This document shows, piece by piece, positions 907 through 50,662 of a DNA stretch of 64,000 nucleotides; position 1 is the stretch's first letter, and every line of letters begins with the position of its first letter. The DNA lies in contig JAYKKT010000041.1 in assembly GCA_036023115.1 (NCBI GenBank), positions 6,188,501 through 6,252,500 on the forward strand, given 5' to 3'. This DNA is from Brasenia schreberi. Lineage: Eukaryota; Streptophyta; Magnoliopsida; Nymphaeales; Cabombaceae. The translations under genes were made by a program, and so were the position numbers. Under the pieces are notes generated by a model, which did not search any database, was not told where the DNA came from, and was given only the letters and a program-made list of their open reading frames with translations.

Positions 907-958
907 GTGAGCCTTTCAAAAATCGAGTTTTTAAGTAGAAGTCTTGCGAATTTTTTTA

Positions 959-988
959 ACTTGTTTTCTTTGCTTGTACTTAGGACAT
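959..988 (+). promoter_or_regulatory. Candidate 3' splice site just before gag
   Basis: A pyrimidine-rich run ends in TTGTACTTAG (AG at 982-983), then G, 25 nt upstream of the gag ATG at 1009. The same run, with only small changes, precedes gag in B, D, E and F. Paired with the GTAAGT donor in the LTR it would define a leader intron of about 1.5 kb that removes the rest of R, U5 and the primer binding site. Splicing itself is inferred. Confidence 0.5.
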
Positions 989-1008
989 TTTGAAAAAGCT
1001 TGAAAAGC

Positions 1009-3865
1009 ATGTCAAAATCTAATCCAAGTGAAGTGTCGAGCCAAGGCTCATGCGCATCAAGTTCTCACTCTAGGAGGATTTTCAAAAACAAAATAAAACT
1101 AGATGAAATCGAGGACCTGAGAAGGGAGTTTGAGGTCAAAATCGATGCTCTCAGACAAGAGGCTGAAGTAGGCGATTCATGTTCATCAAATGGTGAACAA
1201 AGGCCTAAAAAGAAATCTGAAAAACCTCGCAAGCACAAAGAGGCCTCCATAATGGAAGGCAACCAATACCACGAGTCCTTCACACAAAAGGACCGTAAAG
1301 CCCTACAGCAGTTGCTAAAGGGGCAGAATAAAGAGAAAAGGAGCTACGCCCTATCTGATTTTCTTCCTATGGATTACGAAACAGACAGTGACGATGAAAT
1401 ACCGAACTTCCATCGGTATGATGGCATGGGAGACCCTAGGTCTCACTTGCAGCTTTTCTCGCGTCGAGCCCATAAGAAGAAAAAGGACTCGATGAAATGG
1501 GTGTATTGGTTCCCTTTATCCCTTAAAGGCACAGCTGCCAAATGGCTGACTTCCTACTACTTAAGCCAGTTCGCTACTTTTGAAGAGTTAGCGAACTGCT
1601 TCATGCAAAGATTTGCACACAACGTAGAAGTCACGCCGACTCTGAATACCTTAAGGGATACAAAGCAAGGCATGAACGAAGACGTACATGCCTTCATTAT
1701 AAGATGGAGGTCGCTTTTGGGCCAAGTGCGAGAGCCCATAATCGAAGGATGCGTAGTAATGCTCATCCTGGATAACTTTAAAAGCGAGTTAAAAATCCTT
1801 CCCTCGCTCCACGAGATCTCAACTTTCCATAAGTTGATCAAAAAGGCCTCCCTTAAGAAAAGGGACATATGATCACTTATGGAACGGAAGTGTCGTTCCA
1901 AAAACCCGCTTGGAAAAGCCCATCGCATATGGGCTGCCCACGACGGACAAAGGGGCAAAGCCCCATAAAATCGCCAATGTCTGGGTGGATCCAGGCGTGG
2001 CGGGCATTTCCAAAAATTTTGAAAAGTTAGAAAATAAGAGGGAGCGAAATTTTCAAAAACCGGTTGAAAAACGGGAGTATACTCCGCTGGGGCAGCCTGT
2101 GTCGGAGGTCCTAGACCTCCTACTTGCCCAGGGCATGATAGAACTCCATGAAATCCCCGAAGGAGTCACTTCCAAAGGGGGGTATTTAAACCAATTTTGT
2201 AAGTATCATCGGCTCAAAGGCCATGATACCAAACGCTGCTTCTCCCTCTTAAATAAAATTGAGAGCTTGATAGCAGAAGGCCGACTCCAGGTCACTGCGG
2301 AACTTGAGCCACCTCAAGCTATCTTCAAGGAACCCTTTCCCAAACACGCCAGTGGCAGTGGGAAAGGAAAGGAGGTATGTACCCTCACCATTTCCAAGGA
2401 ACTAGCGCAAAAACCAGAACCTGGTCGACCTACTTGTGCTCCCATTCTTGTACTATACAAGAAGCCCGCCCAAGTCGTCATTCGGGGACCACCAAAAGTG
2501 GAAACCCCGGTAAAACCAGTTTTAAAAATCCAAGGTTCTCCTCAGCTCATCCTTAGAGGCAAATTTAGCGCGAACCCTAGGCTGGTCATGGGGGAAGTCA
2601 CTAGATCCGGGAGGATCTATCAACCCCCGCACCTTCAAGGTACTTAAAAGGTGGTCAGTGTGCCTGGCCCCTCAAAAGCATGTATCCCTAGTGTTCTGCC
2701 AAAAGCAGATAAGGATAAAGTCATCCTAAATCCTTATGACTTCGAAAACCACCTTTCAAAGATTCCTATTCACATGTCTATCTTAGAGCTTATAAAAACC
2801 TCGCCTAGTCATAGACTTGTATTAGAGAAAATTCTAGAAAGGGCCAAGGTTGATTCGAACATAAGTCCGGAATCCTTGTCTGCCCAAGTGGCTTTATTAG
2901 GAGCAAAATCGCCCATCACTTTTTCGGAAGATGATGTAGATAGACCCTATGAAACCCATAACCAGGCCCTGCATATCGAGGTGGTTCTAAACAACCACTC
3001 TCTGGACAGGTGCCTAGTCGATGGTGGAGGAGGGCTCAACATCCTTCCACTTCATGTGGCGTACAAAATCGGAGTCACCTTGACTTCAGTGAACCCAAGC
3101 CCCATCGTTATCACTGGATACGATGGGAATGCGTCTAGACCTTTAGGATCCATCGAACTCCCAATGAAAATGGGAGGGATCAAACACACGGGGGTGTTCC
3201 ATGTCTTCGACATCCACCCCTATTATAACCTGTTGCTGGGAAGGCCCTAGATACACAGTTTGTGCGCTGTGCCATCCACCTTCCACAGGTGTGTCAAGAT
3301 CCCTTTTATGGACCAGGTCGTAGTGATCCTAGGTGAGAGTCACCCACAGCTTCAGGGGATCATAAATTCCCCTTGTTTATCAAGCTCCCAGGCCCATGAG
3401 GCTAACCTGGGGCAAATTATGGTTGAGCCACCTCGGCTCGTGTTGAACAACCCTAGGAAGGTTGTATGTGTGAAGGGGTCGCCAAAAGCAGGCCCCCGCC
3501 CAACTCTAATCCTTCTAGGAAAACCCAAGCGTTCCCTATTTCCAAAGCCCCTGGACAAGAGGCCATATGAGCACAATATGGACGATAGCATGTTCCAGGA
3601 CCACGATTTATATCCAACCTTTTCAAAAAACAAGAAATCGTGGAACATGTTGTTGAACATGGGCTACACGCCCTACAAGAGTCTAGGGGCATAGAACCAG
3701 GGTCTCCTAGAGCCCATCCTTCCTAGGGCCAATCCCAGCCGATATGGGATCGGCTATACTCCCCGAATACCGCCGGAGCCACCCCTTGTGACTACCTGGG
3801 TCAAGGGTACCCCGGAACCTGCCTTAGAAGAGACCTACGATTTAGATCTCCTATTCCGAGTCTAA
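1009..3865 (+). pseudogene. gag-pro: gag-pro polyprotein of element A, disrupted
   Basis: Encodes the capsid/nucleocapsid precursor and the aspartic protease of the particle. From the ATG at 1009: a charged N-terminus with a likely coiled coil, the retrotransposon gag core (FHRYDGMGDP motif near 1410-1440), a C-x2-H-x4-H-x4-C knuckle near 2197-2240, and the protease with DGGGG near 3020 and LLLGRP near 3235. About 14 bp are missing near 1850 compared with the other copies, giving a frameshift and a TGA at 1870. In the downstream frame there are TAA at 2645, TAG at 3248 and TAG at 3692 before the natural TAA at 3863. The TTG at 1000 is in frame but the ATG at 1009 is the better start, shared by all copies. 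Dead copy. Confidence 0.92.
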
Positions 3866-3890: not shown

Positions 3891-6800
3891 ATGACAGAAG
3901 ATCCCTTTTCTAAAAATACAAAAACATTTGAAATGCTTAAAATCAAAAAAATCGAAAAACAAGAAAAACCAAAAACAATGGAAAAACAAAAACTCGAAAA
4001 AAGAGTGCTTTGTATAGTTCCCAAGGTTCTTGTTTTACAAAAAACCAAAAAAATCGAAAATTTGGAAAATACCAAAAGATTTTGTACATAGCTGCTCCTG
4101 GTAGGACTTTGGCAAAAGAAAAGGATTTCGAAAGAAACGTCGTCTGCATAGCCAGACGAAAAATTTCGAAATCACTTGAAAATCCAAGTACAAAACCAGG
4201 TCATTTTGAAAACCACGAATCAAATTCTCTCGGGTCTATAGCCCACGAGAATGATCAAAGCCCAGAAGTGGATCCCCTTGAGGAAGATCCCACTTCTGAG
4301 CTCCCAGAATTTCATAGAATTCTCGATTTTGAAAAACCTTCCGAATCAGTAGGAGGAGATTTCATAGAGGTGAACCTAGGGGATGATTCCAATCCCAAAA
4401 TCATCAAAATAGGTGCATGCTTGCATGAAACCGAAAGGTTAGCATTCATTGCATTTTTACGAACCTATTTAGATGTGTTTGCATGGACGTATGAAGACAT
4501 GCCGGGCATAGATCCCAGCATTGTCGAACATCGTCTTCCCTTAGATGTAGGTGTAAAACCCATAAAGCAGAAGCTTAGGAAAATACACCCGAATGTACAC
4601 ATACAAGTCAAAGAGGGTTTAGAAGATTTGCTAAAAGCCGGATTTATAAAACCCATTGCGTATTCTGATTGATTATCAAATATCGTTGTAGTTCGAAAAA
4701 CCAATGGGAAAATTTGAATATGCATCGATTTCAGAAACCTGAATAAAGCCACTCCTAAGGATAATTATCCTTTACCAAACATAGATTTGATAGTCGATAG
4801 TACTGCAAATCATGAAATGTTTTCATTCATGGATGGCTATTCAGGCTATAATCAAATCAAACTAAGTCCACGAGATCAGGGTAAGACCGCCTTCACAACC
4901 CCATGGGGCACGTACTGCTATACAGTCATGCCCTTTGGTTTGAAAAATGCCGGCGCAACATACCAACGAGCCATGACCACGATCTTCCATGATCAAATTC
5001 ATGAGCTTGTAGAAGTGTATGTAGATGATCTCTTGGCAAAATCCAAAACCCGATGCACCCATATCGAATGTTTACAAAAGATTTTTGAAAGGCTTAAGCT
5101 TTACCAAGTAAAGCTAAATCCTCAAAAATGTGTGTTCGGGGTAGAATCAGGGAAGCTTCTAGGCTTTATGGTAAGCCAAAGGGGAATAGAAGTCGACCCC
5201 TCTAAGTGTGGAGCCATCATAGACATGGCTCCACCCTCCATTCTCACCCAAATCCGTAGCCTCCAGGGTCGCTTACAATCCGTTCGCCGATTCATATCGA
5301 ATCTGGCCAATAGATGCGAACCCTTCAACAAACTGTTGAGGAAGGGCACGAAATTCTTATGGGATGACGAATGCCAAAAGTCCTTCGAGAGACTGAAGGC
5401 ATACTTGGTTAATCCCCCCGTTTTGAATCCTCCAAAGCAAGGAAAACCGCTTTTATTATACATCTCCGTGCATGCAAATGCTTTAGGAGCCCTGTTGGCT
5501 CAATACAAGGATGACACCCATAAGGAGTATGCCATCTACTATATTTCGAAAACTCTGTTGGCTTATGAATGAAATTATCAAGCCATGGAGAAGACGTGCT
5601 TGGCCCTAGTCTGGGCCTGCCAGAAATTCAGGCACTATTTCCTAGATCATGAGATCTGGATAGTGTCCAAGCTTGATCCAATCAAGCACTTGTTCGAAAA
5701 CCCATTCTCACGAGTAGATTGGGCAAATGGCAACTCCTCCTAATGGAGTATGATCTGAAATACCATCACTAGATCTCCATTAAGGGACAAGCCCTAGCAG
5801 ATTACGTGGCTGAATTACCCTTAGAGGACGCATATCGCACTCTTGTCGAAATGCCTGATGAAGGCATATTGCAAAACCATTTTCAAAACCACATTTTGGC
5901 AAACTCTTTCGAAAACCATGTGTGGAAGATGCACTTCGATGGGGCACGAAACCAACGAGGGGCTAGTGTTGGGGTCATCCTAATCTCCCCTAAAAAGGGT
6001 GAGATTCCCATAGCAGTCCGCTTAGATTTCGAATGTTCCAACAACGTAGCTGAGTATGAAGCACTCATACAAGGCTTGAGGATTTCGAAAACTCTAGGGG
6101 CATCATGCATCGAGGTCTTTGGAGATTCGCTCCTTGTCATAAACCAGGTTTTGAAAATTTGGCAAGTACGTAATGAGAAACTACTTCCATATCACGGGTT
6201 GGCCACTCGATTGGTTCAATCCTTCCAGTCGTGTAAACTCACACACATAGGAAGAGAGGACAATGGCATCGCCGATGCCCTCTCCTCCTTGGGTTCAGCC
6301 CTGAAGGTCGATCCCATTTCAGGGGCCAGATCTTTGAAAATATGGCATGCACCCCACCCATCCACACACGACTTGGATATTTGCCAAAACAACCCAGAGT
6401 CTATTGAAAAACCCTGGTTTTATGACATAAAACAATTTTTAGAAAATGGGGGATTCACCGAGGATGCCACATCCAAAGATAAGGCATTCATTCATAAGAT
6501 TTCGACCCGATACACCATTCTGGGTGGGGTTTTATACAAAAAGAGTTTTACTGGCATTCTACTTAGGTGTATCGACCTAGAGGAGGCTAGGATAGTGATG
6601 CATGAGTTCCACGATGGAGAATGTGGAGGTCATGTTAATGCCAACATGATGGCAATGAAAATACTTAGAGTGGGCTATTTTTGGTCCACCCTGAAAAAGG
6701 ATTGTCACGATCATGTTAGGAAGTGTCATCCATGTCAAGTGCATGGGCACGCCATTCATATCCCATCATCTGCATTGCATTCCGTGGTCAGCCCCTGGCC

Positions 6801-7662
6801 ATTTACCATGTGGGCGTTTGACATTGTAGGCCCAATATTTCCAAAGGCCTCGAATGGGCATCGATTTATTTTAGCAGCCACGGAGTATTTCTCCAAGTGG
6901 GTGAAAGCCATTTCCCTAACCAATGTGATGGGGCAACATGTGGTGGCTTTCATCCGGAAGAATATCTTCGCTCGATTTGGGGTTCCACGAGACCTTGTGT
7001 CTGATAATGGCACCCCATTCAAGAACGAGCGGATGGTTAAGTTGTGCAACACGTATGGCATAACTCACCACTTCTCCTCGCCCTACTACCCTCAAGGCAA
7101 TGGCCAAGCCGAAGCCACAAACAAGACTCTCATTAGCATAATTGAGAAAACCTTAGAGAAGGGTAGGACGTGGCACGAGAAGCTGGATGAAGCCTTATGG
7201 GCTTATAGGACTTCCATCCGGACTCCCACGAATGCCACAACATTCGAATTGGTCTATGGCACAAACGCCATTCTTCCCATTCATACTCAACTGCATTCAT
7301 TCCATACATCCATAGCACTCGACCTCCCTCTAGAGATGCTTCAGCATGCTAGGATGGCCGAACTAGATTTGCTAGATGAGAGGCAACTCCTTGCCATCGA
7401 TCATGCTCGTGCATACCGGCAAAGGATAGCCCGACATTATAGCAAACACATGAGACCTCACCACATTGAAGTGGGGGATCTGGTTTTAAAAACTATCCAT
7501 CATCGTGGCCCACACCCCCTAGGCAAATGGCGCCCCAACTGGGATGGACCCTATGTTGTACGAGCAACCACTACGAACAATTCGTATTGGTTGATCGATG
7601 TAGAAGGTAGGAATTTAGCAGATCCTATCAATATTCAATACTTAAAGAAGTATCATGTGTAG
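3891..7662 (+). pseudogene. pol: pol polyprotein of element A (RT, RNase H, aRNase H, integrase), disrupted 5' half
   Basis: Pol copies element RNA into DNA and inserts it. An N-terminal lysine-rich segment opens with MTEDPF. RT then has ICIDFRNLNKATP, FMDGYSGYNQI, FGLKNAGATYQRAM and YVDDLL (about 5017). RNase H is near 5440-5790. The archaeal-like second RNase H follows (HFDGA about 5935, AEYEAL, GDSLLV, DNGIADALS). The integrase has HHCC (6600-6740) and catalytic D, D, E in AFDIVG, VSDNGT and GQAEATN. The C-terminus has a WDGPY motif and no chromodomain. Lesions: 1-nt loss near 4077, TGA at 4670, 4715 and 5570, 1-nt loss near 5700, TAG at 5770. From 5773 to the natural TAG at 7660 the frame is open, so the aRNH-integrase part still reads through. 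Confidence 0.93.
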
Positions 7663-8830: not shown

Positions 8831-10078
8831 TGTAAACACCCCGAAATCCCACGAATTTCTTAAACAAACCTGGTTTTTGTACAAGCAGCCCCAAAGGGCC
8901 ATTTTGAGTCTGGAAACCCAGGAGCCTTCCAGACAACCCTGTATATATGTTTTAAACTTCATATTTCAAAAATATATAATATGGCTTTTGAAAACCTTTT
9001 AAAACACGTTTTGAAACCCCAAAGCAGCTTGGCCTAATCAAGACAAGACCAGCGAAGTCAAAGAGAGCCCGGAACCGGAGCACATGTCGAGCTCGGCACA
9101 GCAACTCTCGTATCAAATCCATACCCCCAGGATCTCGAACGTCCAAGACCTTGTTATTATCAAAATGTCATTTGAAGTCATCTCCGGAAGGCAGAAACGG
9201 AGGCGAACGATCATGTTGGCGAAGACCCAACGCAGACGGAGTGCTGATGTTGTCAGACCCCACACAAATCATCCGTTTCGAACACAACTCGAAGGAGTCA
9301 GAGTTCAGTTTGGATCGGATCTGGACCGTATATATCCAGATCCCAATCCAAACCCATATGTGGACTTGGATTTGGATTTGGATTCAAAAATCCAATCCAA
9401 TATCCATATCCATGGCCCACATCACCTTCTCATAAATGGAGGTGGGGCCCACTTGAAATTCACGTGGGATCATGGGCATGAGAGAGAGTGGGGGGTGGAT
9501 AAGATCAAGTGTGGTTGTAATTAAGCTTGACTTGTGTGTCAAGTTTGGGGTTAATCATGTGGGTTAGCCTAATTGAGTGGGTTTAAGCTTGTAATTAGCC
9601 AAAACCTAACCTAGGGTTGCACCAACATGATGTGGTTAAGGTCTATGGGCCATGCAAAGGGGAGCTCCTTCACCTAAACCTAACCCAAAACACCTAATCC
9701 TAGCCTTCCACCCTAATCCACCCCTAATCTGAGCCTAATCACCTAACCCACTTCCCTAATCCCGGCCTAATCCCAACCTAATCACCTAACCCACTTCCCT
9801 AATCCTTCCCTAAACCTAGGTTAATTTCCCTAAACCTAGCCTAATCCTAGCCTAATCACCTAACCTAGCTCACTAAACCTCACCCTAGAACCAACCCACC
9901 TAACTAAACCCTAAACCACTAAACCACCCCATCTAAACCTAGCAGACCATATCCCCCAAAACCATTAAAACAAAATATCTGAACCTACCCTAATACCAGC
10001 CCACCATATCACCTTACCACCCTCCCTAGACCACCTAACCACTACCCCAAAACCACCCCCACCGCCCTTCACAAAGGC

Positions 10079-10932: not shown

Positions 10933-10938
10933 GTAAGT
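10933..10938 (+). promoter_or_regulatory. Conserved 5' splice donor-like GTAAGT in R
   Basis: GTAAGT follows CTACTA and precedes GCCTAACTCGG. Exact GTAAGT is present in all eight LTR copies that include this site; here it lies upstream of both TTGTAATAA motifs. Use of the donor in a 5' LTR would splice out the promoter-proximal polyadenylation signals. Conservation is seen; function is inferred. Confidence 0.5.
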
Positions 10939-14138: not shown

Positions 14139-14255
14139 GTTTTCAAGCTTTTTCAAAATGTCCTAAGTACAAGCAAAGAAAACAAGTTAAAATGACACCT
14201 TTTACAAAATTTTCGCAAGACTTCTACTTAAAAACTCGATTTTTGAAAGGCTCAC

Positions 14256-14278: not shown

Positions 14279-17200
14279 TGTAGACGCACGAAAAAAATCC
14301 CCGCTTTCTCACCCTTTCAGGGCTTGGAGCGGATCCTCTCGTGTGTCTAAGGCCTATTTATGCAAACAGGGCGTGCCAGCTAGCTTACCTAAGCTAGCAA
14401 AGATATATTTAAAACTGACTTCTAATCGTGGTGACTGTGAGCAAGTGAGCTCTTGTCGTCGCAGACCTTCTTGCACCGATGCGCAAGGGTCAGTCTGTAC
14501 TTTTTGCAAAAAATCGAGTTTTGGGAGAGAAAGTCTGCGAAGCGGTTCGAGGTGTCTAATTCTGGTCTTTTAGATGCGATTGCACATTTTAGATCACGTG
14601 GATTTGCACGTGCCTAAGTCTTTCCTTTTATCCCTTTTCGGGCCACCTAGTTTGTGTGTTATGAACACTCCACTACGTGGGCGAATTCGAGCGGGGCTTG
14701 CTTTGATGCAATATGCATCCTACCTCATGGTATGGCGTAGATGCAGTGCAAACTCACACTACTCCAAAGGGAAAACCCGAATGTAAAGACAATACTGAAG
14801 GGAAATAACCGAAGGGAAATGACTTGAAATATAAATGCCGAAGGGAGATATGTATATAGAGTATGTATATGAGCCCTTACTCGGGTCTTGCAAATAAGAG
14901 CGAAGGCTCAATGTGGGTGCGTGCTTGAATGGAAAGACTTACACACACGACATGAAATTAAACCCAAATATAAATTGCAGTATGGCCTTGACTAAGGTCT
15001 TGGGAGTAAGAGCGAAAGCTCAATGTGTGTGAGAGTGCTTGAATTGAAGTACTACGCACACGACATGAAATTAAACCCAAATATAACGGCAATAGGCCTT
15101 GACTAAGGTCTTGGGAGTAAGAGCGAAAGCTCAATGTGTGTGAGAGTGCTTGAATTGAAAGACTTACACACAAAACATGAAATGAAACCCAAATATAACT
15201 GCAATAGGCCTTGACTAAGGTCTTGGGAGTAAGAGCGAAAGCTCAATGTGTGTGAGAGTGCTTGAATTGAAAGACTTACACACATGACATGAAATGAAAC
15301 CCAAATATAATAGGTCGGCCCTTACTTGGGTCTTTCAAATAAGAGCGAAGGCCCAATGTGTGTGAGAGTTTGAATTTTAAGACAACACACCCAACTTAAG
15401 CAAAACCCTACAAAATGAAAGTATATGTATATACTTATGTATTAGGGGCTGATTAGGCCCGTGTGTGTTCAAAATCGTGCACAGCTAGGAGAGTGCACGT
15501 GTGTGGGTGTGCCAAGCCACGTTATTACAAGCGGGGGGAGACTATGCTCTGTTATTACAACCTCATATCGAATTGAATCTCAAGCAAGTATACAACTAAA
15601 GACCGAGTTAGGCACTTACTAGTAGCTGGTTCGTAGATGCCTTGCTTGAGGGTGGGCTTGGCCTTCGCCTTGGGCTGCAAAAGGGAGCTCCGCGCGGTTG
15701 AGCGACAAGGGGTGCTGGCCGGGTGGCCTTGAAGGTCTAGGTGGTGGCGGGTAGGTAGGATGCTATGGGTTCGGCTGAGTGGGGCTGGTGGCAGCAAGCG
15801 GAAGGGCTGGTGTTAGGGGGATATGGGAGTGGATTAGGTGGTTGAGAATGGAGAGGGAGTGAAGAGGGAGTAAGGTGGAAGGTAGGGCACTTACCGAGTG
15901 AAGAGAGGGTGGCGCTCGACTGGAAGGAAGTGGTGCAGGTGGTGGCGTTTGGCTGGGCTGGGGAAGTGATGCAGGTGGTGGCGGGATGTGGAGTAAGTGG
16001 TGGTGGGATGTGGAGCAGGTGGAGCAGGTGGCGGAGCTTGGGGAAGTGGAGGACCCGACTGGGAAATGGGTTGGGCTGGACCAAGGTGAGAGAGGATGGG
16101 AAGGGAGAGAGCTTCTAGCTCGGAAAACCCGCCCCCAAGGGGGGGGGTTTATATAGGGATGGGTAGGTCGGTTAGGGCTGGGTTTGGGGTAGTGGTTAGG
16201 TGGTTTAGGTAGGGTGGTATGACGATAAGGTGGGCTGGAAAGGGTAGGGCCAGATATTTTAGATACTAGTGGTTTGGGTAGGTTGTGGGCTAGGGGTGGT
16301 TTAGGGGTTTAGGGTTTGGTTAGGTGGGTTGGTTCTAGGGTGAGGTTTAGTGAGCTAGGTTAGGTGATTAGGCTAGGATTAGGCTAGGTTTAGGGAAATT
16401 AACCTAGGTTTAGGGAAGGATTAGGGAAGTGGGTTAGGTGATTAGGTTAGGATTAGGCCGGGATTAGGGAAGTAGGTTAGATGATTAGGCTCAGATTAGG
16501 GGCGAATTAGGGTGGAAGGCTAGGATTAGGTATTTTGGGTTAGGTTTAAGTGAAGGAGCTCCCTTTGCATGGCCCATAGACCTTAACCACATCATGTTGG
16601 TGCAATCCTAGGTTAGGTTTTGGCTAATTACAAGCTTAAACCCACTCAATTAGGCTAACCCACATGATTAACCCCAAACTTGACACACAAGTCAAGCTTA
16701 ATTACAACACACTTGATCTTATCCTTCCCCACTCTCTCTCATGCCCATAATCCGACGTGAAATTCAAGTGGGCCCCACCTCCATTTATGAGAAGGTGATG
16801 TGGGCCATGGATATGGATATTGGATTGGATTTTTGAATCCAAATCCAAATCCAAGTCCATACATGGGTTTGGATTGGGATCTGGATATATATGGTCCAGA
16901 TCCAATCCAAACTGAACTCTGACTCCTTCGAGCTGTATTCGAAACGAACGGTTTGTGCGGGGCCTGACAGCATCAGTGCTCCGTCTGCGTCGGGTCTTCG
17001 CCAACATGATCGTCTGCCTCTGTTTTCGCCTTCCGGAGATGACTTCAAAGGATGTTTTGATGATAACAGGGTCTTGGACGTTCGAGATCCTGGGGGTGTG
17101 AATTTGATACAAGAGTTGCTGTGCCGGGCTTGACAGGTGCTCCGGTTCCGGGCTCTTCTTAGCTCTCCTGGTCCTGTCTGGATTAGGCCAAGCTGCTTCG

Positions 17201-19007: not shown

Positions 19008-20819
19008 TGTAAACACCCCGAAATCCCACGAACTTCTCAAACAAACTTGGTTTTGTAAAAGCAGCCCCGAAGGGCTATTTTGAGTTTGGAAACCTAGGAG
19101 CCTTCCAGGCAACCCTGTACATATGTTTAAACTGTATATGTTTTAAAATATGTATAATATGCTTTTAAAACCTTTAAAATATGTTTTGAAACCCCACGAA
19201 GCGGCTTGGCCTGATCAAAGCAGGACTAGAAGAGCTAAAGAGAGCCCCGAACCGAAGCACATGTCGAGCCCGGCACAACAACTCTCGAGTTGAATCCACC
19301 CCCAGGATCTCGAACGTCCAAGACCTTGTTATCATCAAAAGTCCTTTGAAATCTTCTTCGGAAGGTGAAAATAGAAGCGGACGACCATGTTGGCGAAGAC
19401 CCAACGTAGACGGAGTATTGATGCTGTCAGACCCCACACAAACCGTTCGTTTCGAACACAGCCTGAAGGAGTCAGAATTCAGTTTGGATTGGATCTGGAC
19501 CATATATATCCAGATCCCAATCCAAACGTATGTGTGGATTTGGATTTGGATCTAGAGATCCAGTCCAATATCCACATCCATGGCCCACATCACCTTCTCA
19601 TAAATGGAGGTGGGGCCCACTTGAAATTCACGTGGGATTATGGGCATGAGAGAGAATGGGGAGGATAAGCATGAGGGTAATTGTATTAAGCTTGACTTGT
19701 GTGTCAAGTTTGGGGTTAATCATGTGGGTTAGCCTAATTAGTGTGGGTTTAAGCTTGTATTAGCCAAAACCCCTAATCCTAGCCTTTTACCCTAATCCCA
19801 GCCTAATCCTAGCCTAATCACCTAACCCACTTCCCTAATCCCGGCCTAATCCCAACCTAATCACCTAACCCACCTCCCTAATCCTTCCCTAAACCTAGCC
19901 TAATTCCCTTAATCCTAACCTAATCCTAGCCTAAACACCTAACCCACCTCACTAAACCTCACCCCGAAACCAACCCACCTAGCTCAGCCCTAAACCCCTA
20001 AACCACCCCAGCTAAACCTAGCACACCATATCCCTAAAACCACCTAAATAAAATATCTGGCCCCTCCTCAAAACCAGCCCACCTTACCACCACACCACCA
20101 CCACCTAACCACCTTACCACCCTCTCAAAACCACCCCCAAACCGACCTTGGAAAAACTATAACCCCCCCCCTAGTGGGCAGGTTTTTCAAGTTCTGCCAG
20201 CCAGCCCTTGGGCCAGCCGAACCCTCTCTCACCTGGCTCTCTTCTTCCACCTGCACCACCACTACCCCCAGCCAGCTCCACCTCGCGCCACCACCACCTT
20301 CCAGCCTGCTCCCTTCCACGTCGCCACCACAGTCGCCCGGCCAGCTCCCTAGCAGCCGGCAAGCTCCAAGGCGCCACACCCGCGCTCCCTTGTCACCCGG
20401 CCAGCACACCCCTTTGCCGTGCCATTCCAAGGAGCTCCCTCTTGCAGCCCAAGGTGAAGCCCAAGCCCACGCTCAAGCAAGTCACCTCCGGACTGGCTAT
20501 AAGTAAGTGCCTAACTCGGTCCTCATTTGTAGACTTGTTTAAGTTAAATTAAATTTGATACGGGGTTGTAATAACGGAGCATTGTCTCTCCCCGCTTGTA
20601 ATAACGTGGCTTGGCACACCCACACTCACGTGCACTTGAGCCTACCTCACTCTTAGTTGTGCACGATTTTGAACACACACGGGCCTAATCAACCCTTAAG
20701 ATATAAGTTTATTTATATACTTTAAGTTGTGTAGGGTTTTTGCTTGAGTTGTGTGTGTTGTCTGTAAATTCTCGCACTCACACACATTGAGCTTTCGCTC
20801 TTACTCCCAAGACCTTAGT
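19008..20819 (+). repeat. 3' LTR of element C, truncated
   Basis: Starts TGTAAACACC. The telomere-like tract at about 19760-20060 is shorter than in A or F. TATAAC at 20158-20163 is a weakened TATA site, followed by a C-run and GGGCAGGTTTTT. Donor GTAAGT at 20503-20508; TTGTAATAA motifs near 20567 and 20597. It stops at 20819 within the first unit of the 110-bp array (after GACCTTAGTT). Confidence 0.9.
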
Positions 20820-21711
20820 TGGGTAAAGGATAATTATCCTTTGGAGTGGCTTTATTCAGGTTTCTGAAATCGATGCATATTCGAATTTTCCTATTGGTTT
20901 TTCGAACCACAACGATATTTGACAACCAATCAGAATACGCAATGGGTTTTATAAATCCGGTTTTTAGCAGATCTTCTAAACCCTCTTTGACTTGCATGTG
21001 TACATTCGGGTGTATTTTCCTAAGCTTCTGCTTTATGGGTTTTACACCTGCATCTAAGGGAAGACGATGCTCGACTATGCTGGGATCTTTGCCCGGCATG
21101 TCTTTATACGTCCATGCAAACACATCTAAATAGGTTTGTAGAAATGCAATGAATGCTAACTTTTCAGTTTCATGCAAGCATGCGCCTATTTTGATGGTTT
21201 TGGGATTGGAATCATCCCCTAGGTTCACCTCTATGAAATCTCCTCCTACTGATTGGGATGGTCTTTCAAAATCGAGAATTCTATGAAATTCTGGGAGCTC
21301 AGAAGTGGGATCTTCCTCAAGGGGATCCACTTCTAGGTTTTGATCATTCTCGTGGGCTATAGACCCGAGGGAACTTGATGCGTGGTTTTCAAAATGACCT
21401 GGTTTTGTACTTGGATTTTCAAGTGATTTCAAAATTTTTGGTCTGGCTATGCAGACGACGTTTCTTTCGAAATCCTTTTCTTTTGCCAAAGTCCTACCAG
21501 GAGCAGCTATGTACAAAATCTTTTTGGTATTTTCCAAATTTTTGATTTTTTTGGGTTTTTGTAAAACAAGAACCTTGGGAACTATACAAAGTACTCTTTT
21601 TTCGAGTTTTTGTTTTTCCATTGTTTTTGGTTTTTCTTGTTTTTTCGATTTTTTTGATTTTATGTTTTTCAAATGTTTTTGGTATTTTTAGTAAAAGGGA
21701 TCTTCCGTCAT
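20820..21711 (-). pseudogene. pol: pol N-terminal fragment of element D (truncated in RT)
   Basis: Starts at the ATG at 21711 but meets a TAA at 21690-21688 (MTEDPFY then stop). The same frame then stays open through the lysine-rich segment, the spacer and the beginning of RT (IRICIDFRNLNKATPKDNYP), where it is cut at 20820 by the junction with C. The catalytic YVDD motif, both RNase H domains and the integrase are gone. The small indels in the A-rich start are the same in E, which supports D and E being sister copies. Confidence 0.88.
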
Positions 21712-21736
21712 ACCTACAAAGGGAAAACACTATGGG

Positions 21737-24607
21737 TTAGACTCGGAATAGGAGATCTAAATCGTAGGTCTCTTCTAAGACAGGCTCCGGGGCACCCTTG
21801 ACCCAGGTGGTCACAAGGGGTGGCTCCGGCTGTATTCGGGGAGTGTAGCCGATCCCATATCGGCTTGGGTTGGCCCTAGGTAGGATGGGCTCTAGGAGAC
21901 CCTGGTTTTGTGCCCCTAGACTCTTGTAGGGCGTGTAGCCCATGTTCAATAACATGTTCCACGACTTTTTGTTTTTTGAAAAGGTTGGATATAAGTCGTG
22001 GTCCTGGAACATGCTATCGTCCATATTAGGCTCGTATGGCCTTTTGTCAAGGGGTTTTGGAAATAGGGAACGCTTAGGTTTTCCTAAGAGAATTAAAGTC
22101 GGGAGGGGGCTTGCTTTGGGCGGCCCCTTCACACATACAACCTTCCTAGGGTTGTTCAATACGAGCCGAGGTGGCTCAACTATGATTTGCCCCAGGTTAG
22201 CCTCATGGGCCTGGGAGCTTGATAAACAAGGGGAGTTTATGATCCCCTGAAGCTGTGGGTGACTCTCACCTAGGATCACTACGACCTGGTCCCTAAAAGG
22301 GATCTTGACACACCTGTGGAAGGTGGATGGCACAGCGCACAAACTGTGTATCCAGGGCCTTCCCAGCAATAGGTTATAATGGGGGTGGATGTCCAAGACA
22401 TGGAACACCCCCGTGTGTTCGATCCCTCCCGTTTCCATTGGGAGTTCGATGGATCCTAAAGGTCTAGACGCATTACCATCGTATCCAGTGATAACGATGG
22501 GGCTTGGGTTCACTGAAGTCAAGGTGACTCCGATTTTGTACTCCACATGAAGTGGAAGGATGTTGAGCCCTCCTCCACCATCGACTAGGCACCTGTCCAG
22601 AGAGTGGTTGTTTAGAACCACATCGATATGCAGGGCCTCGTTATGGGTTTCGTAGGGTCTATCTACATCATCTTCCAAAAAAGTGATGGGCGATTTTGCT
22701 CCTAATAAAGCCACTTGGGCAGATAAGGATTCCGGACTTATGTTCGAATCAACCTTGGCCCTTTCTAGAATTTTCTCTAATACAAGTCTATGCCTAGGCG
22801 AGGTTTTTATAAGCTCTAGGATAGACATGTGGATAGGAATCTTTGAAAGGTGGTTTTCGAAATCATAAGGATTTAGGATGACTTTGTCCTTATCTGCTTT
22901 TGGCAGACCACTAGGGATACATGCTTTTGAGGGGCCAGGCACACTGACCACCTTTTGAGCACCTTGAAGGTGCGGGGGTTGATAGATCCTCCCGGATCTA
23001 GTGACTTCCCCCACGACCAGCCTAGGGTTCGCGCTAAACTTGGCTCTAAGGATGAGCTGAGGAGAACCTTGGATTTTCAAAACTGGTTTTACCGGGGTTT
23101 CCACTTTTGGTGGTCCCCGAATGACGACTTGGGCGGGCCTCTTGTATAATACAAGGATGGGCGCACAAGTAGGTCGACCAGGTTCTGGCTTTTGCGCTAG
23201 TTCCTTGGAAATGGTGAGGGTACATACCTCCTTTCCTTTCCCACTGCCACTGGCGTGTTTGGAAAAGGGTTCTTTGAAGATAGCTTGAGGTGGCTCAGGT
23301 TCCGCAGTGACCTGGAGACGGCCTTCTGCTATCAAGTTCTCAATTTTATTTAAAAGAGAGAAGCAACGTTTGGTATCATGGCCTTTGAGCCGATGATACT
23401 TACAAAATCGGTTTAAATACCCCCCTTTGGACGTGACTCCTTCGGGGATTTCAGGGAGTTCTATCATGCCCTGGGCAAGTAGGAGGTCTAGGACCTCCGA
23501 CACAGGTTGCCCCAGTGGAGTATACTCCCGTTTTTCAACCGGTTTTTGAAAATTGCGTTCCCTCTTATTTTCTAATTTTTCAAAATTTTTGGAAGTGCCC
23601 GCAATGCCTGGATCCACCCGGACATTGGCGATTTTATGGGGCTTTGCCCCTTTGTCCGTCGTGGGCAGCCCATATGTGATGGGCTTTTCCAAACGGGTTT
23701 TTGGAATGGCACTTCCTTTCCATAAGTGGTCGTATGTCCCTTTTCGCAAGTTGGTTTCGAAAAGGGAGGCCTTTTTTATCAACTTATGGAAAGTTGAAAT
23801 CTCATGGAGCGAGAGAAGGGTTTTTAACTCGCTTTTAAAATTATCCAGGATGAGCATTACTGCGCATCCTTCAGATATGGGCTCTCGCACTTGGCCCAAA
23901 AGCGACCTCCATCTTATAATGAAGGCATGTACGTCTTCGTTCATGCCTTGCTTTGTATCCCTTAAGGTATTCAGGGTTGGCTTGACTTCTACGTTGTGTG
24001 CAAATCTTTGCATAAAGCAGTTCGCTAACTCTTCAAAAGTAGCGAACTGGCTTAAGTCGTAGGAAGCCAGCCATTTGGCAGCTGTGCCTTTAAGGGATAG
24101 AGGGAACCAATACACCCATTTCATCGAGTCCTTTTTCTTCTTATGGGCTCGACGTGAGAAAAGCTGCAAGTGAGACCTAGGGTCTCCCATGCCATCATAC
24201 CGATGGAAGTTCGGTATTTCATCGTCACTATCTATTTCGTAGTCCATAGGAAGGAAATCAGACAGGGCGTAGCTTCTTTTCTCTTTATTCTGCCCTTTTA
24301 GCAACTGCTGTAGGGCTTTACGGTCCTTTTGTGTGAAGGACTCGTGGTATTGGTTGCCTTCCATTACGGAGGCCTCTTTTTGCTTGCGAGATTTTTCAGA
24401 TTTCTTTTTAGGCCTTTGTTCACCGTTCGATGAACATGAATCGCCTACTTCAGCCTCTTGGCTGAGAGCATCGATCTTGGCCTCAAACTCCCTTCTCAAA
24501 TCCTCGATTTCATCTAGTTTTATTTTGTTTTTGAAAATCCTCCTAGAGTGAGAACTTGATGCGCATGAGCCTTGGCTCGATACTTCACTTGGATTGGATT
24601 TTGACAT
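21737..24607 (-). CDS. gag-pro: gag-pro polyprotein of element D, uninterrupted
   Basis: The only open gag-pro in the window: 956 codons from the ATG at 24607 to TAA at 21737. It would make capsid, nucleocapsid and protease for a cytoplasmic virus-like particle. Domains: coiled-coil-like N-terminus (about residues 30-55); gag core with FHRYDG at 134-139, FPLSLKG and WLASYDL; nucleocapsid knuckle C402-x2-H405-x4-H410-x4-C415; basic proline-rich linker; protease with DGGGG at 676-680 (in place of the usual D-T/S-G), flap-like ITGYDGN and LLLGRPW. The acceptor-like run ends 26 nt upstream of the ATG. An in-frame TTG three codons earlier is a less likely start. Its own pol is truncated, so it cannot be autonomous. 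Confidence 0.9.
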   Translation of the reverse strand: MSKSNPSEVSSQGSCASSSHSRRIFKNKIKLDEIEDLRREFEAKIDALSQEAEVGDSCSSNGEQRPKKKSEKSRKQKEASVMEGNQYHESFTQKDRKALQQLLKGQNKEKRSYALSDFLPMDYEIDSDDEIPNFHRYDGMGDPRSHLQLFSRRAHKKKKDSMKWVYWFPLSLKGTAAKWLASYDLSQFATFEELANCFMQRFAHNVEVKPTLNTLRDTKQGMNEDVHAFIIRWRSLLGQVREPISEGCAVMLILDNFKSELKTLLSLHEISTFHKLIKKASLFETNLRKGTYDHLWKGSAIPKTRLEKPITYGLPTTDKGAKPHKIANVRVDPGIAGTSKNFEKLENKRERNFQKPVEKREYTPLGQPVSEVLDLLLAQGMIELPEIPEGVTSKGGYLNRFCKYHRLKGHDTKRCFSLLNKIENLIAEGRLQVTAEPEPPQAIFKEPFSKHASGSGKGKEVCTLTISKELAQKPEPGRPTCAPILVLYKRPAQVVIRGPPKVETPVKPVLKIQGSPQLILRAKFSANPRLVVGEVTRSGRIYQPPHLQGAQKVVSVPGPSKACIPSGLPKADKDKVILNPYDFENHLSKIPIHMSILELIKTSPRHRLVLEKILERAKVDSNISPESLSAQVALLGAKSPITFLEDDVDRPYETHNEALHIDVVLNNHSLDRCLVDGGGGLNILPLHVEYKIGVTLTSVNPSPIVITGYDGNASRPLGSIELPMETGGIEHTGVFHVLDIHPHYNLLLGRPWIHSLCAVPSTFHRCVKIPFRDQVVVILGESHPQLQGIINSPCLSSSQAHEANLGQIIVEPPRLVLNNPRKVVCVKGPPKASPLPTLILLGKPKRSLFPKPLDKRPYEPNMDDSMFQDHDLYPTFSKNKKSWNMLLNMGYTPYKSLGAQNQGLLEPILPRANPSRYGIGYTPRIQPEPPLVTTWVKGAPEPVLEETYDLDLLFRV

Positions 24608-24728
24608 GCTTTTCAAGCTTTTTCAAAATATCCTAAGTACAAGCAAAGAAAAAACAAGTTAAAACGACACCTTTTTACAAAATTTTCGCAAGACTTCTAC
24701 TTTAAAACTCGATTTTTGAAAGGCTCAC

Positions 24729-24746
24729 CTCCCACCGGGCGTGCCA
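24729..24746 (-). promoter_or_regulatory. Primer binding site of element D
   Basis: Reverse complement TGGCACGCCCGGTGGGAG lies 5 nt from the LTR end. Its last base differs from A (G for C). Its presence on this side of the LTR at 24752 is the key evidence that this LTR is a 5' LTR for D. Confidence 0.8.
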
Positions 24747-24751
24747 ATCTC

Positions 24752-27700
24752 TGTAGACGCGCGAAAATCCCCGCCTTCTTTGCCTTTTTCAGGGCTCGGA
24801 GCGGATCCTCTCGTATGTCTAAGGCCTATGTATGCAAACAGGGCGTGCCAACTAGCTTACCTAAGCTAGCGAAGATAGTTTTAACACTGACTTCTAAACG
24901 TGGCGACTGTGAGCAAGTAAGCTCTTGTCGTCGCAGACCTTCTTGCACCGATGCGCAAGGGTAAGTCTGTACGCTTTGCAAAAAAATTGAGTTTTGGAGA
25001 GAAAGTCTACGAAGCGGTTCGAGGTGTCTATTTCGGGTCTTTAAAATGCGATTGCATGTTTTAGATCACGTGGATTTGCACGTGCCTAAGTCTTTTCTTT
25101 TATCCCTTTTCGGGCCACCTAGTTTGTGTGTTATGAACACTCCACTACATAGGCGAATTCGAGCGGGGCTTGCTTCGATGCAATATGCGTCCTACCTCGT
25201 GGTATGGCATAGATGCAATGCAAACTCACGCTACTCCAAAGGGAAAACCCGAAATGTAAAGACAATACTGAAGGGAAATAACTGAAGGGAAATAACCGAA
25301 GGGAAATAAACGAAGGGAAATAACCAAAGGGAAATAACCGAAGGGAAATATGTATATATGATATGTATATGAGCCCTTACTCGGGTTTTGCAAATAAGAG
25401 CGAAGGCTCAATGTAGGTGCGTGCTGGAATTGAAAGACTTACACACACGACATGAAATTAAACCCAAATATAAATTGCAGTATGGCCTTGACTAAGGTCT
25501 TGGGAGTAAGAGCGAAGGCTCAATGTGTGTGAGAGTGCTTGAATTGAAAGACTACCCACACGACATAAATGAAACCCAAATATAACTGTAATAAGGCCTT
25601 TACTAAGGTCTTGGGAGTAAGAGTGAAGGCTCAATGTGTGTGAAAGTGCTTGAATTGAAAGACTTACTCACACGACATGAAATAAAACCCAAATAGTATA
25701 GGTCGGCCCTTACTTGGGTCTTTCAAATAAGAGCGAAAGCTCAATGTGTGTGAGAGTGCTTGAATTGAAAGACTTACTCACACGACATGAAATGAAACCC
25801 AAATAGTATAGGTCGGCCCTTACTTGGGTCTTTCAAATAAGAGCGAAAGCTCAATGTGTGTGAGAGTGCTTGAATTGAAAGACAACGCACCCAACTTAAG
25901 CAAAAACCCTTCGAAAATGAAAATATATATATATACTTATGTATTAGGGGCTGATTAGGCCCGTGTGTGTTCAAAATCGTGCACGACTAAGAGAGTGCAC
26001 GTGTGTGGTTGTGCCAAGCCACGTTATTACAAGTGGGGGGAGACTACGCTCCGTTATTACAACCCCGTATCAAATTGAATCTCAAGCAAGTATACAACTA
26101 AAGACCGAGTTTAGACACTTACGAGTAGCTGGTCCGTAGAGGCCTTGCTTGAGCGTGGGCTTGGCCTTCGCCTTGGGCTGCAAACGGGAGCTCCGCGAGG
26201 ATAGGTGACCAAAGGTGCTGGCCGGCTGCAAGTGGGGCGCGGGATAGGCACCTCGAAGGTGGCCGGCTGCAAATGGGTATCGCCTCGATATGGGGGGGGG
26301 TTAAAGAGGCTGGACCAAGTGAGTGTTTTGGGTCACTAGGGGAGTCGAGGGTTTAGGGAAGGTGGACCTAAAAGGAGTTTAGGGGAAGGCCGAATGGGAT
26401 AGGATGGTTAGGTAGTGGCCGGTAGTTTAGGTTATGCTAGGTTCGGCTAAGTGAAAAGGGGTGGTGGCAAAGGCTGAGATGATGATAGGGTGGGTGGCTA
26501 GGAGTGGAGAGGTAGTAGAGAAGGGTTTAGGTAGAGTTAGAGAATGCTTACCGAACGGGGAGAGGTGGCGGATGGAAGAAAGAAGAAGCCGGATGTGGGA
26601 GTTTGGCTGGTTCGGTTGGGTGAAGGTGGTGGCGTCCGGCTGGGGGATGGTGGTGGAAGGAAGAGATAAGGTGGCGGTGCAGGTAGAGCTGGTGGAGCAG
26701 GTGGAGAGTGGTCCCGGCTGGGCTGGAAAAGGATGGTCTCGGCTGGGTGAGGTGAGGGCTCTAGCTTCCAAAACCCGCCCCCAAGGGGGGGTTTAAATAG
26801 GGGATGGGTAGGTCGGTTAGGGCTGGGCTTGGGGTAGTGGTTAGGTGGTTTAGGTAGGGTGGTATGTAGATAAGGTGGGCTGGAAAGGGTTGGGCCAGAT
26901 ATTTTGAAAACTAGGGGTTTGGGTAGATTGTGGGCTAGGGGTGGTTTAGGGGTTTAGGGCTAGGTTAGGTGGTTGGGTTTTAGGGTGAGGTTTAGTGAGC
27001 TAGGTTAGGTGATTAGGCTAGGTTTAGGCTAGGATTAGGGAAATTAATCTAGGTTTAGGGAAGGATTAGGGAAGTGGGTTAGGTGATTAGGTTGGGATTA
27101 GGACGGGATTAGGGAAGTGGGTTAGGTGATTAGGTTTAGATTAGGGGTGGATTAGGGGTTTAGGCTAGGATTAGGCATTTTGGGTTAGGTTTAGGTGAAG
27201 GAGCTCCCTTTGCATGGCCCATAGACTTTAACCACCTCATGTTGGTGCAGCCCTAGGTTAGGTTTTAGCTAATTACAAGCTTAAACCCACTCAATTAGGC
27301 TAACCCACATGAAGTCAAGCTTAATTACAACACTCTTGATATTTTCCACCCCCACTCTCTCTCATGCCCAATATCCCACGTGAATTTCAAGTGGGCCCCA
27401 CCTCCATTTATGAGAAGGTGATGTGGGCCATGGATATGGATATTGGATTGGATCTCTGGATCCAAATCCAAATCCAAATCCAAGTCCACATATGGGTTTG
27501 GATTGGGATCTGGATATATATGGTCCAGATCCAATCCAAACTGAACTCTGACTCCTTCGAGCTGGGTTCGAAATGGACGATTTGTGCGGGGCCTGACAGC
27601 ATCAGTACTCCGTCTGCGTTGGGTCTTCGCCAACATGGTCGTCCGCCTCCGTTTCTGCCTTCCGGAGATGACTTCAAATGACATTTTGATAAGAACAGGG

Positions 27701-28020
27701 TCTTGGACGTTCGAGATCCTGGGGGTATGGATGTGATACAAGAGCTGCTATGCCGGGCTCGACATGTGCTCCGGTTCCGGGCTCTTCTTAGCTCTCCTGG
27801 TTCTGTTTGGATTAGGCCAAGCTGCTTCGGGGTTTCAAAAACGTGTTTTAAAAGGTTTTTAAAAGCCATATTATATATTTTTGAAATATGAAGTTTAAAA
27901 CGTATGTATAGGGTTGTCTGGAAGGCTCTTGGGTTTCCAGACTCAAAAATGGCCCTTTGGGGCTGCTTGTACAAAACCAGGTTTGTTTTAAGAAGTTCGT
28001 GGGATTTCAGGGTGTTTACA
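24752..28020 (-). repeat. Shared LTR: 5' LTR of D and 3' LTR of E
   Basis: Complete LTR of 3269 bp read on the minus strand, TGTAAACACC at 28020 to TCTACA at 24752. Internal map: 14-bp minisatellite 25262-25350 (about six GAAGGGAAATAAC units); 110-bp array about 25386-25890; donor GTAAGT (reverse of 26117-26122); TTTAAATA TATA site 26792-26799; telomere-like tract about 26800-27260. Very similar to the LTR at 50663-53950. Polypurine tract on the high side, primer binding site on the low side. Confidence 0.93.
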
Positions 28021-28334
28021 GATGCCCCTCTTTGGCCTTGTCCAAATCGATTTGGATAAGGGCAAAGATGACAAAACACCCCTTTTAATGTCTCCCTAGA
28101 TCTAGCCACGAAGAATATGGGATCGTCCCATTTTAGTAAAATCTCAATTTACAAACTCTGGTAGGAGGAGATATCACGCCAAAGGGTTCACTATGGAATC
28201 TGGTCCTAAATGGAATCATGTTTATGCAAGTACCATGCGTGGAATGCAAATGACATGGGTGTGGTGCTAAGAGTGGCGACCTCCCAAAGACCAGATGTGG
28301 TCGAACTCTAGAGACTTACAAGGCCTATTGCTCC
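28021..28334 (-). other. 3' UTR of element E, part nearest the LTR
   Basis: Begins with the reverse complement of the polypurine tract (CCCCTCTTT, 28025-28033) and continues as the E 3' UTR until F interrupts it. The last five bases, GCTCC (28330-28334), are the target-site duplication. The rest of this UTR resumes at 42984. Confidence 0.88.
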
Positions 28335-31300: not shown

Positions 31301-31673
31301 CTCCGTTTCTGCCTTCCGGAGATGACTTCAAATGCTATTTTAATAAGAACAGGGTCTTGGACGTTCGAGATCCTGGGGTGTGAATCAGATACAAGAGTTG
31401 CTGCGCCGGGCTCGACAGGTGCTCCGGTTCCGGGCTCTTCTTGGCTCTCCTGGTCCTGTCTTGATCGGGCCAAGCCACTTTGGGGTTTCAAAACATGTTT
31501 TAAACAGGGTTTTCAAAAGCTATATCATATGTTTTTGAAAGATAAAGTTTAAAACATATGTACAGGGTTGTTTGGAAGGCTCCTGGGTTTCCAAACTCAA
31601 AATGGCCCTTTGGGGGCTGCTTGTATAAAACCAGATTCGTTTAAGAAATTCGTGGGATTTCGGGGTGTTTACA
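28335..31673 (-). repeat. 3' LTR of element F
   Basis: 3339 bp, ends TGTAAACACC (31673) and TCTACA (28335). Internal map: minisatellite about 28850-28919; 110-bp array about 28952-29450; donor GTAAGT (reverse of 29684-29689); TTTAAATA TATA site 30432-30439; telomere-like tract about 30440-30910. It has a 13-bp stretch near 28928-28940 that is absent from the 5' LTR of the same element. Confidence 0.96.
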
Positions 31674-35800: not shown

Positions 35801-36619
35801 CCATTGGTTTTTCGAACTACAACGATATTTGACAACCAATCAGAATACGCAATGGGTTTTATAAATCCGGCTTTTAGCAGATCTTCTAAACCCTCTTTGA
35901 CTTGCGTGTGTACATTCGGGTGTATTTTCCTAAGCTTCTGCTTTATTGGTTTTACACCTATATCTAAGGGAAGACGATGCTCGACTATGCTGGGATCTAT
36001 GCCCGGCATGTCTTCATACATCCATGCAAACACATCTAAATAGGTTCGTAGAAATGCAATGAATGCTAACTTTTCAGTTTCATGCAAGCATGCGCCTATT
36101 TTGATGGTTTTGGGATTGGAATCATCCCCTAGGTTCACCTCTACGAAATCTCCTCCTACTGATTGGGAAGGTCTTTCAAAATCGAGAATTCTATGAAATT
36201 CTGGGAGCTCAGAAGTGGGATCTTCCTCAAGGGGATCCACTTCTGGGCTTTGATCATTCTCGTGGGCTTTAGACCCGAGGGAACTTGATGCGTGGTTTTC
36301 AAAATAACCTGGTTTTGTACTTGGATTTTCAAGTGATTTCGAAATTTTTGGTCTGGCTATGTAGACAACGTTTCTTTCGAAATCCTTTTCTTTCGCCAAA
36401 GTCATACCAGGAGCAGCTATGTACAAAATCTTTTTGGTATTTTCCAAATTTTCGATTTTTTTGGGTTTTGTAAAACAAGAACTTTGGGAACTATACAAAG
36501 CACACTTTTTTCGAGTTTTTGTTTTTCCATTGTTTTTGGTTTTTCTTGTTTTTCGATTTTTTGATTTTAAGTTTTCAAATGTTTTTGGTATTTTTTTAGA
36601 AAAAGGGATCTTCCGTCAT
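32846..36619 (-). pseudogene. pol: pol polyprotein of element F, two frameshifts
   Basis: Almost complete RT-RNH-aRNH-IN. From the ATG at 36619 the frame reads MTEDPFF then stop, because one extra T shifts it. The following frame is open from there through RT (YVDDLL near 35480), RNase H and into aRNH. A single missing base near 34512 (CCCTTTC where other copies have CCCTTTTC) ends it at 34495. The continuing frame is open through the rest of aRNH and integrase (HHCC, then D, D, E in AFDIVG, VSDNGT and GQAEATN) to TAG at 32846. Both lesions are in homopolymers, so sequencing error is possible; if real, F was mobilised in trans or mutated after insertion. Confidence 0.92.
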
Positions 36620-36644
36620 ACCTACAAAGGGAAAACACTATGGG

Positions 36645-50657: not shown

Positions 50658-50662
50658 ATCTC

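Follow-up and report, generated by a model that had tools for sequence, protein, structure and literature searches.

A 64,000-nucleotide stretch of the Brasenia schreberi genome (contig JAYKKT010000041.1, positions 6,188,501 to 6,252,500, forward strand; hereafter the window), from an assembly of 1.055 Gb in 92 contigs, holds many nested Ty3/gypsy elements with long terminal repeats (LTRs). Comparison of these elements with diverged relatives elsewhere in this genome, in four lineages (I-IV), points to a real and probably regulated leader intron in a Tat-clade (Ogre/Retand-like) Ty3/gypsy family, a reading to which we assign a probability of roughly 0.72. The predicted intron opens at a GTAAGT donor inside the LTR and closes at an acceptor just upstream of gag. 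The primer-binding site lies inside it, a point added to those of the first-pass annotation of this DNA.

The clade assignment follows from domain order. Pfam matches in the window cover gag, G-patch, reverse transcriptase (RT), RNase H (RH), a second RNase H (RVT_3) and integrase (INT); RVT_1 and RT_RNaseH_2 at 4817-5572 are followed by RVT_3, H2C2 and rve at 5851-7662. A second RNase H (aRH) between RH and INT is the position rule for the Tat clade, the Ogre/Retand group (PMC6317226; citations here and below refer to passages of the cited papers). The order RT-RH-RVT_3-INT fits the Ogre/Retand part of that clade, with RVT_3 presumed from its place among the domains to be the aRH.

The predicted arrangement in one element, F, is as follows (all features on the minus strand).

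28335-42983 (approximate limits): element F, 14.65 kb, with a 3.3-kb LTR pair 99.2% alike
39657-42983: 5' LTR of F (TG...CA), paired by self-alignment with 28334-31674 at 99.2%
41741-41750: TATA box CTATTTAAAC, which would place the transcription start about 30 nucleotides (nt) downstream, near 41720
40999-41720: predicted 5' exon, C-rich and without ATG
41438-41446: upstream donor-like site GGTAAGTAC (donor 1), of the form GGT[A/T]AG[T/C] in lineages I, II and IV
39541-40998: predicted leader intron, 1458 nt
40993-40998: LTR donor GTAAGT of the 5' LTR, first six intron bases
40930-40938: first TTGTAATAA, resembling a polyadenylation (poly(A)) signal and presumably acting as one, 60 nt past the donor
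40900-40908: second TTGTAATAA
40251-40761: 110-bp tandem array inside the predicted intron
39634-39652: primer-binding-site-like TTGGCACGCCCGGTGGGAC inside the predicted intron
39564-39570: branch-point-like TTTTAAC
39541-39560: pyrimidine tract and acceptor TTTTCTTTGCTTTTACTTAG
39516-39540: predicted second exon, 25 nt to the gag ATG at 39515

The first-pass annotation had put the F intron at about 1.46 kb and had it remove two TTGTAATAA motifs, the array and U5. The interval 40998-39541 bears this out, and it also spans the primer-binding-site-like stretch. Predicted intron lengths elsewhere are 1457-1557 nt in lineage I, 1484-1518 nt in four lineage-II loci, 1088-1105 nt in three lineage-III copies and 1452 nt in one lineage-IV copy. 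The 110-bp units hold four of the six ATGs of the F intron, and several of them have their own GTAAGT or CAAGTAAG, which might act as weak extra donors or decoys. In lineage II, CTATAAGTAAGT was considered as a TATA box and set aside, as it is not kept in the other lineages; a TATA box lies about 0.7-0.9 kb upstream in the 16 lineage-II loci scored.

Predicted donor and acceptor across four lineages

A BLAST search with the region from TATA box to donor gave nine LTR copies in the window that span the donor site. All nine carry GTAAGT, at the places listed by the first-pass annotation, except that the copy placed at 55433 starts at 55432. Besides the donor of the F 5' LTR, these are:

10933-10938, plus strand: 3' LTR of element A
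15614-15619, minus strand: element B
20503-20508, plus strand: lineage-II fragment
26117-26122, minus strand: LTR shared by elements E and G
29684-29689, minus strand: 3' LTR of F
52028-52033, minus strand: 5' LTR of G
55432-55437, plus strand: lineage-II fragment
57913-57918, plus strand: lineage-I LTR

A tenth copy, the 5' LTR of A itself (L037), lies just left of the window and also has GTAAGT. Taken alone, the invariance within the window is uninformative, since 33 of the 190 6-mers around the donor are equally invariant among the nine LTRs. GTAAGT occurs 48 times in the window where 23.7 are expected, with much of the excess inside the 110-bp arrays.

Diverged lineages narrow the conserved set to 7 of 245 6-mers. 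Across 250 columns of an alignment of 16 LTRs from the four lineages, GTAAGTG and GTTGTAATAA are the only runs of at least 6 that do not vary, with a spacing of 58-63 nt; the donor likewise stands 58-63 nt upstream of TTGTAATAA, the putative poly(A) signal, in 16 of 16. Only copies that have both GTAAGTG and TTGTAATAA could enter this alignment, and none of the 16 named copies failed that requirement; three copies known to lack GTAAGTG (L065, L033 and the lineage-IV copy in L068) lie outside it.

The remaining counts depend on how the copies were obtained. Lineage-II loci were fetched by their R region with a query that held the donor, and 29 of the 30, one of which is the window's own copy, have GTAAGT. 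Lineage-I loci were found with a donor-containing query, and their donor rate is therefore not counted. A diverged leader from L054 gave access to lineage III, and sequence adjoining the window supplied lineage IV together with a further III-like leader. Among the LTRs fetched by these leaders (4 of 40 places listed for lineage III and 2 of 41 for lineage IV), GTAAGTG is present in 4 of 4 and 2 of 2 copies. Lineage III keeps GTAAGTG although its exon side shares just 40-60% identity with the other lineages in stretches of 25-50 nt, a figure given without an unrelated-sequence control. In L054 itself a lineage-II LTR is joined to a lineage-III leader and gag, which suggests exchange between lineages inside the predicted intron.

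On the acceptor side, an acceptor-like pyrimidine run had been noted before gag in five copies, and all five gag leaders in the window do share TTTTAACTTG, a T-rich tract and ACTTAG|GA 24-25 nt upstream of the gag ATG (25 nt in F, 24 in B). The AG ends at 983, 14163, 24633, 39541 and 50544. The blocks outside F are:

952-983, plus strand: acceptor block of copy A, AG ending at 983, gag ATG at 1009
14139-14190, minus strand: branch point, acceptor and leader to gag of copy B, AG ending at 14163
24608-24662, minus strand: the same in copy E, AG ending at 24633
50519-50573, minus strand: the same in copy G, AG ending at 50544

A chosen set of 15 leaders was then compared; it leaves out E (near-identical to G), loci that duplicate window copies, a number of almost identical loci of lineage I and, in lineage II, the truncated L058. 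Fourteen of the 15 have TTAAC (TTAAG in L041), 23-27 AG-free nt of 75-86% pyrimidine and a YAG, followed by 22-29 ATG-free nt up to the gag start. Among further leaders, three of four in lineage III keep the AG, as does the one scorable leader of two in lineage IV. The lineage-III acceptor ends in CATAG instead of CTTAG, which indicates that the layout outlives the sequence. A scan of both window strands for this layout (TTAAC, 21-27 nt, AG-free, at least 75% pyrimidine, YAG; a rule set after the leaders had been viewed) returned six occurrences, five of them the five gag leaders, and adding a first ATG 20-30 nt further on left exactly these five. The gag acceptor also has the top acceptor score in the 14.65-kb F element; splice-site scores, here and below, use approximate plant frequencies. 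The predicted intron thus carries candidate signals of a U2-type intron: GT donor, branch point, pyrimidine tract and AG acceptor.

Two further signatures make no use of the motifs. In lineage I the donor coincides, to within 5 nt, with a step in base composition. A one-break likelihood model of four-letter composition was applied from the TATA box to 900 nt past the donor; in five lineage-I copies the break falls at 0, 0, -5, -5 and 0 nt relative to the donor, and T rises there from about 10% to about 40%. In a shorter frame, with row I_B5 left out because it was anchored on donor 1, the break lies at -5, -5 and -9 in three lineage-II rows and at -5 in one of two lineage-IV copies. The copies being related, these breaks are not independent of one another as tests.

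In lineages I and II, upstream ATGs are distributed in a way that also sets the exon apart. The U3 ATG count is as expected, and from 28 nt past the TATA box to the donor there are no ATGs in five of five lineage-I copies. We counted exon ATGs in 29 lineage-I loci (30 rows less L031, whose exon is empty) and in the 16 of 30 lineage-II loci that have both TTGTAATAA motifs and a TATA box: there are 3 against a shuffled expectation of 52 in lineage I, and 7 against 36 in lineage II. Since copies of one lineage are closely related, the effective sample here amounts to a few lineages. Lineage IV (two fetched copies and L068) has no exon ATG in the stretch covered, where just 0.4-1.3 are expected. 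On these sequence comparisons, the donor-acceptor pairing proposed in the first-pass annotation has withstood the diverged lineages, the composition break, the ATG census and the layout scan.

Contrary evidence, rival readings and a proposed mechanism

Several observations weigh against this pairing. The LTR donor is of moderate strength, ranking 197 or 355 among 6580 GT sites (about the top 3-5%), and lacks a G at -1; in all five copies it is outscored by donor 1 (41445 in F). The donor is lost in L033 (GAAAGT) and L065 (GTAAGA), and the lineage-IV copy in L068 (5398-5460) lacks the block with donor and TTGTAATAA, apparently through a deletion into the array. The acceptor is lost in L062, where the terminal trinucleotide is mutated, and in III_C44. 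A break computed on A+T alone scatters from -19 to +21 in lineage I; the other lineage-IV copy has its four-letter break at -63; and the breaks of four lineage-III copies are off or diffuse (-34, -41, -84 and -204). Lineage-III exons are not clearly depleted of ATGs (1-4 against 3.5-5.2 expected in 327 nt). The intron, too, is poor in ATGs: in lineage I it has 41-51% of expectation as a whole and 20-44% outside the array; for lineages III and IV the figure is 39-65%, taken over the first 1050 nt. Such poverty would be unexpected if the intron were always removed and argues against obligatory splicing. The ATG pattern as a whole agrees with an exon serving as leader in every case and an intron at times retained in scanned RNA.

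The LTR donor could instead serve mainly for the docking of U1, which would keep the poly(A) signal in the 5' LTR silent, with splicing to gag minor or absent. No blocks are better conserved than the donor and TTGTAATAA, whose spacing stays at 58-63 nt, and in foamy viruses the major donor stands upstream of the poly(A) signal, its suppressive effect being described under a heading as independent of splicing (PMC3694450). A docking role leaves unexplained the conserved acceptor by gag, the depletion of exon ATGs and the compositional step, and we consider it improbable as the main function. A different pairing of sites, with the gag acceptor joined chiefly to donor 1 or the LTR donor joined to the acceptor at 40786, has an equally slender claim. 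Donor 1 is the higher-scoring site, at rank 78 in both F and B, 84 in A and 279 in each of G and E. The form GGT[A/T]AG[T/C] recurs there in 29 of 29 lineage-I loci, in 15 of 16 scored lineage-II loci and in two copies of lineage IV; use of donor 1 would remove the same downstream features as use of the LTR donor. Against it, the composition break sits at the LTR donor and not at donor 1. The 40786 acceptor is the third best in F, the 213-nt LTR-internal intron it would define (40998-40786) has a length usual in plants, and 12 of 15 aligned rows retain its AG (the exceptions are L037, 55413 and L054), as do 22 of 23 lineage-II loci. That AG is absent in the three scorable lineage-III and two lineage-IV copies, whereas the gag acceptor spans all lineages, and we judged this smaller intron the less likely one.

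Least probable, and in our view quite unlikely, is that the conserved motifs are not splice sites at all and represent other cis elements (of the poly(A) region, packaging or translation) that resemble splice sites by chance. In favour of this, 33 of 190 window 6-mers match GTAAGT in invariance, and the leader tract could bind other factors; set against it, only 7 of 245 6-mers stay invariant across the four lineages, and the branch point, the AG-free zone and the YAG are still present where their letters have changed.

Two side observations concern donor 1. In lineages I and II its CGGT[A/T]AGTAC-like sequence stands about 190-280 nt past the presumed start. The lineage-IV copy in L068, which lacks the LTR-donor block, retains both donor 1 and the gag acceptor.

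For the leader intron we propose the following sequence of events. Transcription would start about 30 nt past the LTR TATA box and yield a 5' exon that ends at GTAAGT in R and, in lineages I and II, is about 510-860 nt long, C-rich and almost without ATGs. The intron, of about 1.1 kb in lineage III and 1.45-1.56 kb in lineages I, II and IV, would end at a YAG 22-29 nt before the gag ATG. Splicing would yield a Gag(-Pro) mRNA with a clean leader, and RNA that escapes splicing would be the genome. U5 and the primer-binding site would leave with the intron, so that the spliced mRNA could not be reverse-transcribed. The U1 small nuclear ribonucleoprotein at the donor, 58-63 nt before TTGTAATAA, probably blocks cleavage in the 5' LTR in both classes of RNA; the 3' LTR, which has the same donor, would have to escape this suppression.

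Two functions that the first-pass annotation ascribed to splicing need restating accordingly. Removal of the TTGTAATAA motifs could solve premature polyadenylation for the spliced mRNA only. Unspliced genomic RNA must pass the same poly(A) site, which makes U1 at the donor the likelier device, as in foamy viruses. Relief from leader translation is supported only in part; the low ATG content of the lineage-I intron outside the array looks as if the unspliced leader, too, is sometimes scanned.

A narrow search for a spliced genomic copy found none: six partial matches were scored and none joins both exons, one of them (L033) extending a few bases beyond the junction and having intron letters there. 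A search for the exon-exon junction in F's letters with 3 mismatches, which did not cover lineages II-IV, gave no match. These empty searches are expected, because spliced RNA would lack the primer-binding site, and we do not count them against the intron.

If the intron is real, its enclosure of the primer-binding site would make a simple physical switch, with spliced RNA as mRNA and unspliced RNA as genome; the balance between translation and reverse transcription of one retroelement transcript has been called a major question (PMC3735527). It would also explain how Gag is produced at all when the transcribed leader is about 2 kb long, a problem posed for the Diaspora element in 2005.

A second candidate acceptor before pol and the setting of the elements

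F has a second strong acceptor after the gag-pro stop:

36622-36641, minus strand: acceptor ATAGTGTTTTCCCTTTGTAG; the pol frame opens at 36615

This is the second-best acceptor in F, ending at 36622, with TTTTCCCTTTGTAG followed by GTATGA 7 nt before the pol frame; TTTTCCCTTTGTAG and GTATGA together (36602-36641, minus strand) resemble an adjoining pair of 3' and 5' splice sites. The acceptor is kept in A, B, E, F and G, with one tract letter different in B, and outside F its AG ends near 3888 (plus strand) and 11245, 21714 and 47625 (minus strand). The gag-pro and pol frames do not overlap in F and E, and frameshifting therefore cannot join gag-pro to pol there. Read by eye, all three frames past the acceptor meet a stop before pol in F, so that the acceptor cannot fuse Gag to Pol in that element. 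A separate Pol mRNA made through this acceptor is possible on the sequence.

A fuller, retrovirus-like programme would have the LTR donor or donors spliced alternately to the gag and pol acceptors, giving separate Gag-Pro and Pol mRNAs without a primer-binding site and leaving the unspliced RNA as template. The positions of the two best F acceptors, just before gag and pol, and the non-overlapping frames support it; we hold it as a speculative extension, with the odds against it. If true, splicing itself would sort mRNA from genome.

The best-scoring F donor, GAG plus GTATGTAC at 38135 (minus strand), lies at a codon boundary within gag-pro. If it were spliced to the 36622 acceptor, its frame would end after one codon (GTA TGA), and the product would resemble the short Gag RNAs of BARE1 and EVADE; F carries a stop in this donor's frame slightly upstream.

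The gag-pro frame is closed by a G-patch domain (36645-37736 and 21737-24607, both minus strand). G-patch is among the atypical domains of plant Gypsy elements and is present in type D retroviruses (PMC9289625). Stretches 20818-28020 and 46729-53950 are alike at 98.1% over 7.2 kb. The LTR at 28021-24752 seems to be shared, as the 3' LTR of one element and the 5' LTR of the next, in a tandem LTR-internal-LTR-internal arrangement, and F is inserted in the first unit. The LTRs also contain 43-bp tandem repeats of CCTAATCC-type units (9711-9813, 19790-19904, 63454-63600 and others; upstream of the TATA box in F). An antisense open frame of 154 residues lies within the LTR at 28428-28892 (plus strand).

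Comparison with known retroelement splicing

Spliced LTR elements of plants offer several partial likenesses. Ogre of pea and Medicago, also of the Tat clade, shares the domain order and the separate gag-pro and pol frames and uses splicing, as is predicted here (PMC6317226), and has a tRNA-Arg primer-binding site (PMC9289625). Its intron lies between gag-pro and RT, whereas the Brasenia intron is upstream of gag and starts in the LTR. Spliced Gag RNAs of BARE1 and EVADE likewise show splicing dividing or varying the transcripts (PMC3735527, PMC12786077); the BARE1 intron differs in that it is 104 nt long and near the end of gag, so that leader and primer-binding site stay (PMC3735527). Splice isoforms are also described for Tyran and Varan of sunflower (PMC7730604).

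Foamy viruses have an LTR donor upstream of a poly(A) signal, and in them U1 at the major donor silences the poly(A) site of the 5' LTR, the escape of the 3' LTR being ascribed to RNA structure (PMC3694450). They differ in making Gag from unspliced and pol/env from spliced RNA (PMC9143442), whereas the acceptor here is placed before gag. Cauliflower mosaic virus, another reverse-transcribing element of plants, has donors and a single acceptor in the 5' part of its genomic RNA (PMC4498817); unlike the present family it is a pararetrovirus without integrated LTRs.

In the passages covered of the open-licence PMC literature we found no case in which an intron upstream of gag has been demonstrated for a plant LTR retrotransposon, and priority is uncertain. 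The authors of the Diaspora study stated in 2005 that they knew of no reported case of such leader splicing (PMC1142308). Diaspora, an Athila-related Ty3/gypsy element of Glycine max, has a long LTR with five donors predicted 1.4-2.2 kb upstream of gag, and two predicted acceptors flank its start codon (PMC1142308). That prediction was made on one consensus in another clade (PMC1142308), whereas several lineages are compared here. The predicted Brasenia leader intron would accordingly be a variant on known retroelement splicing, with Diaspora as its nearest precedent.

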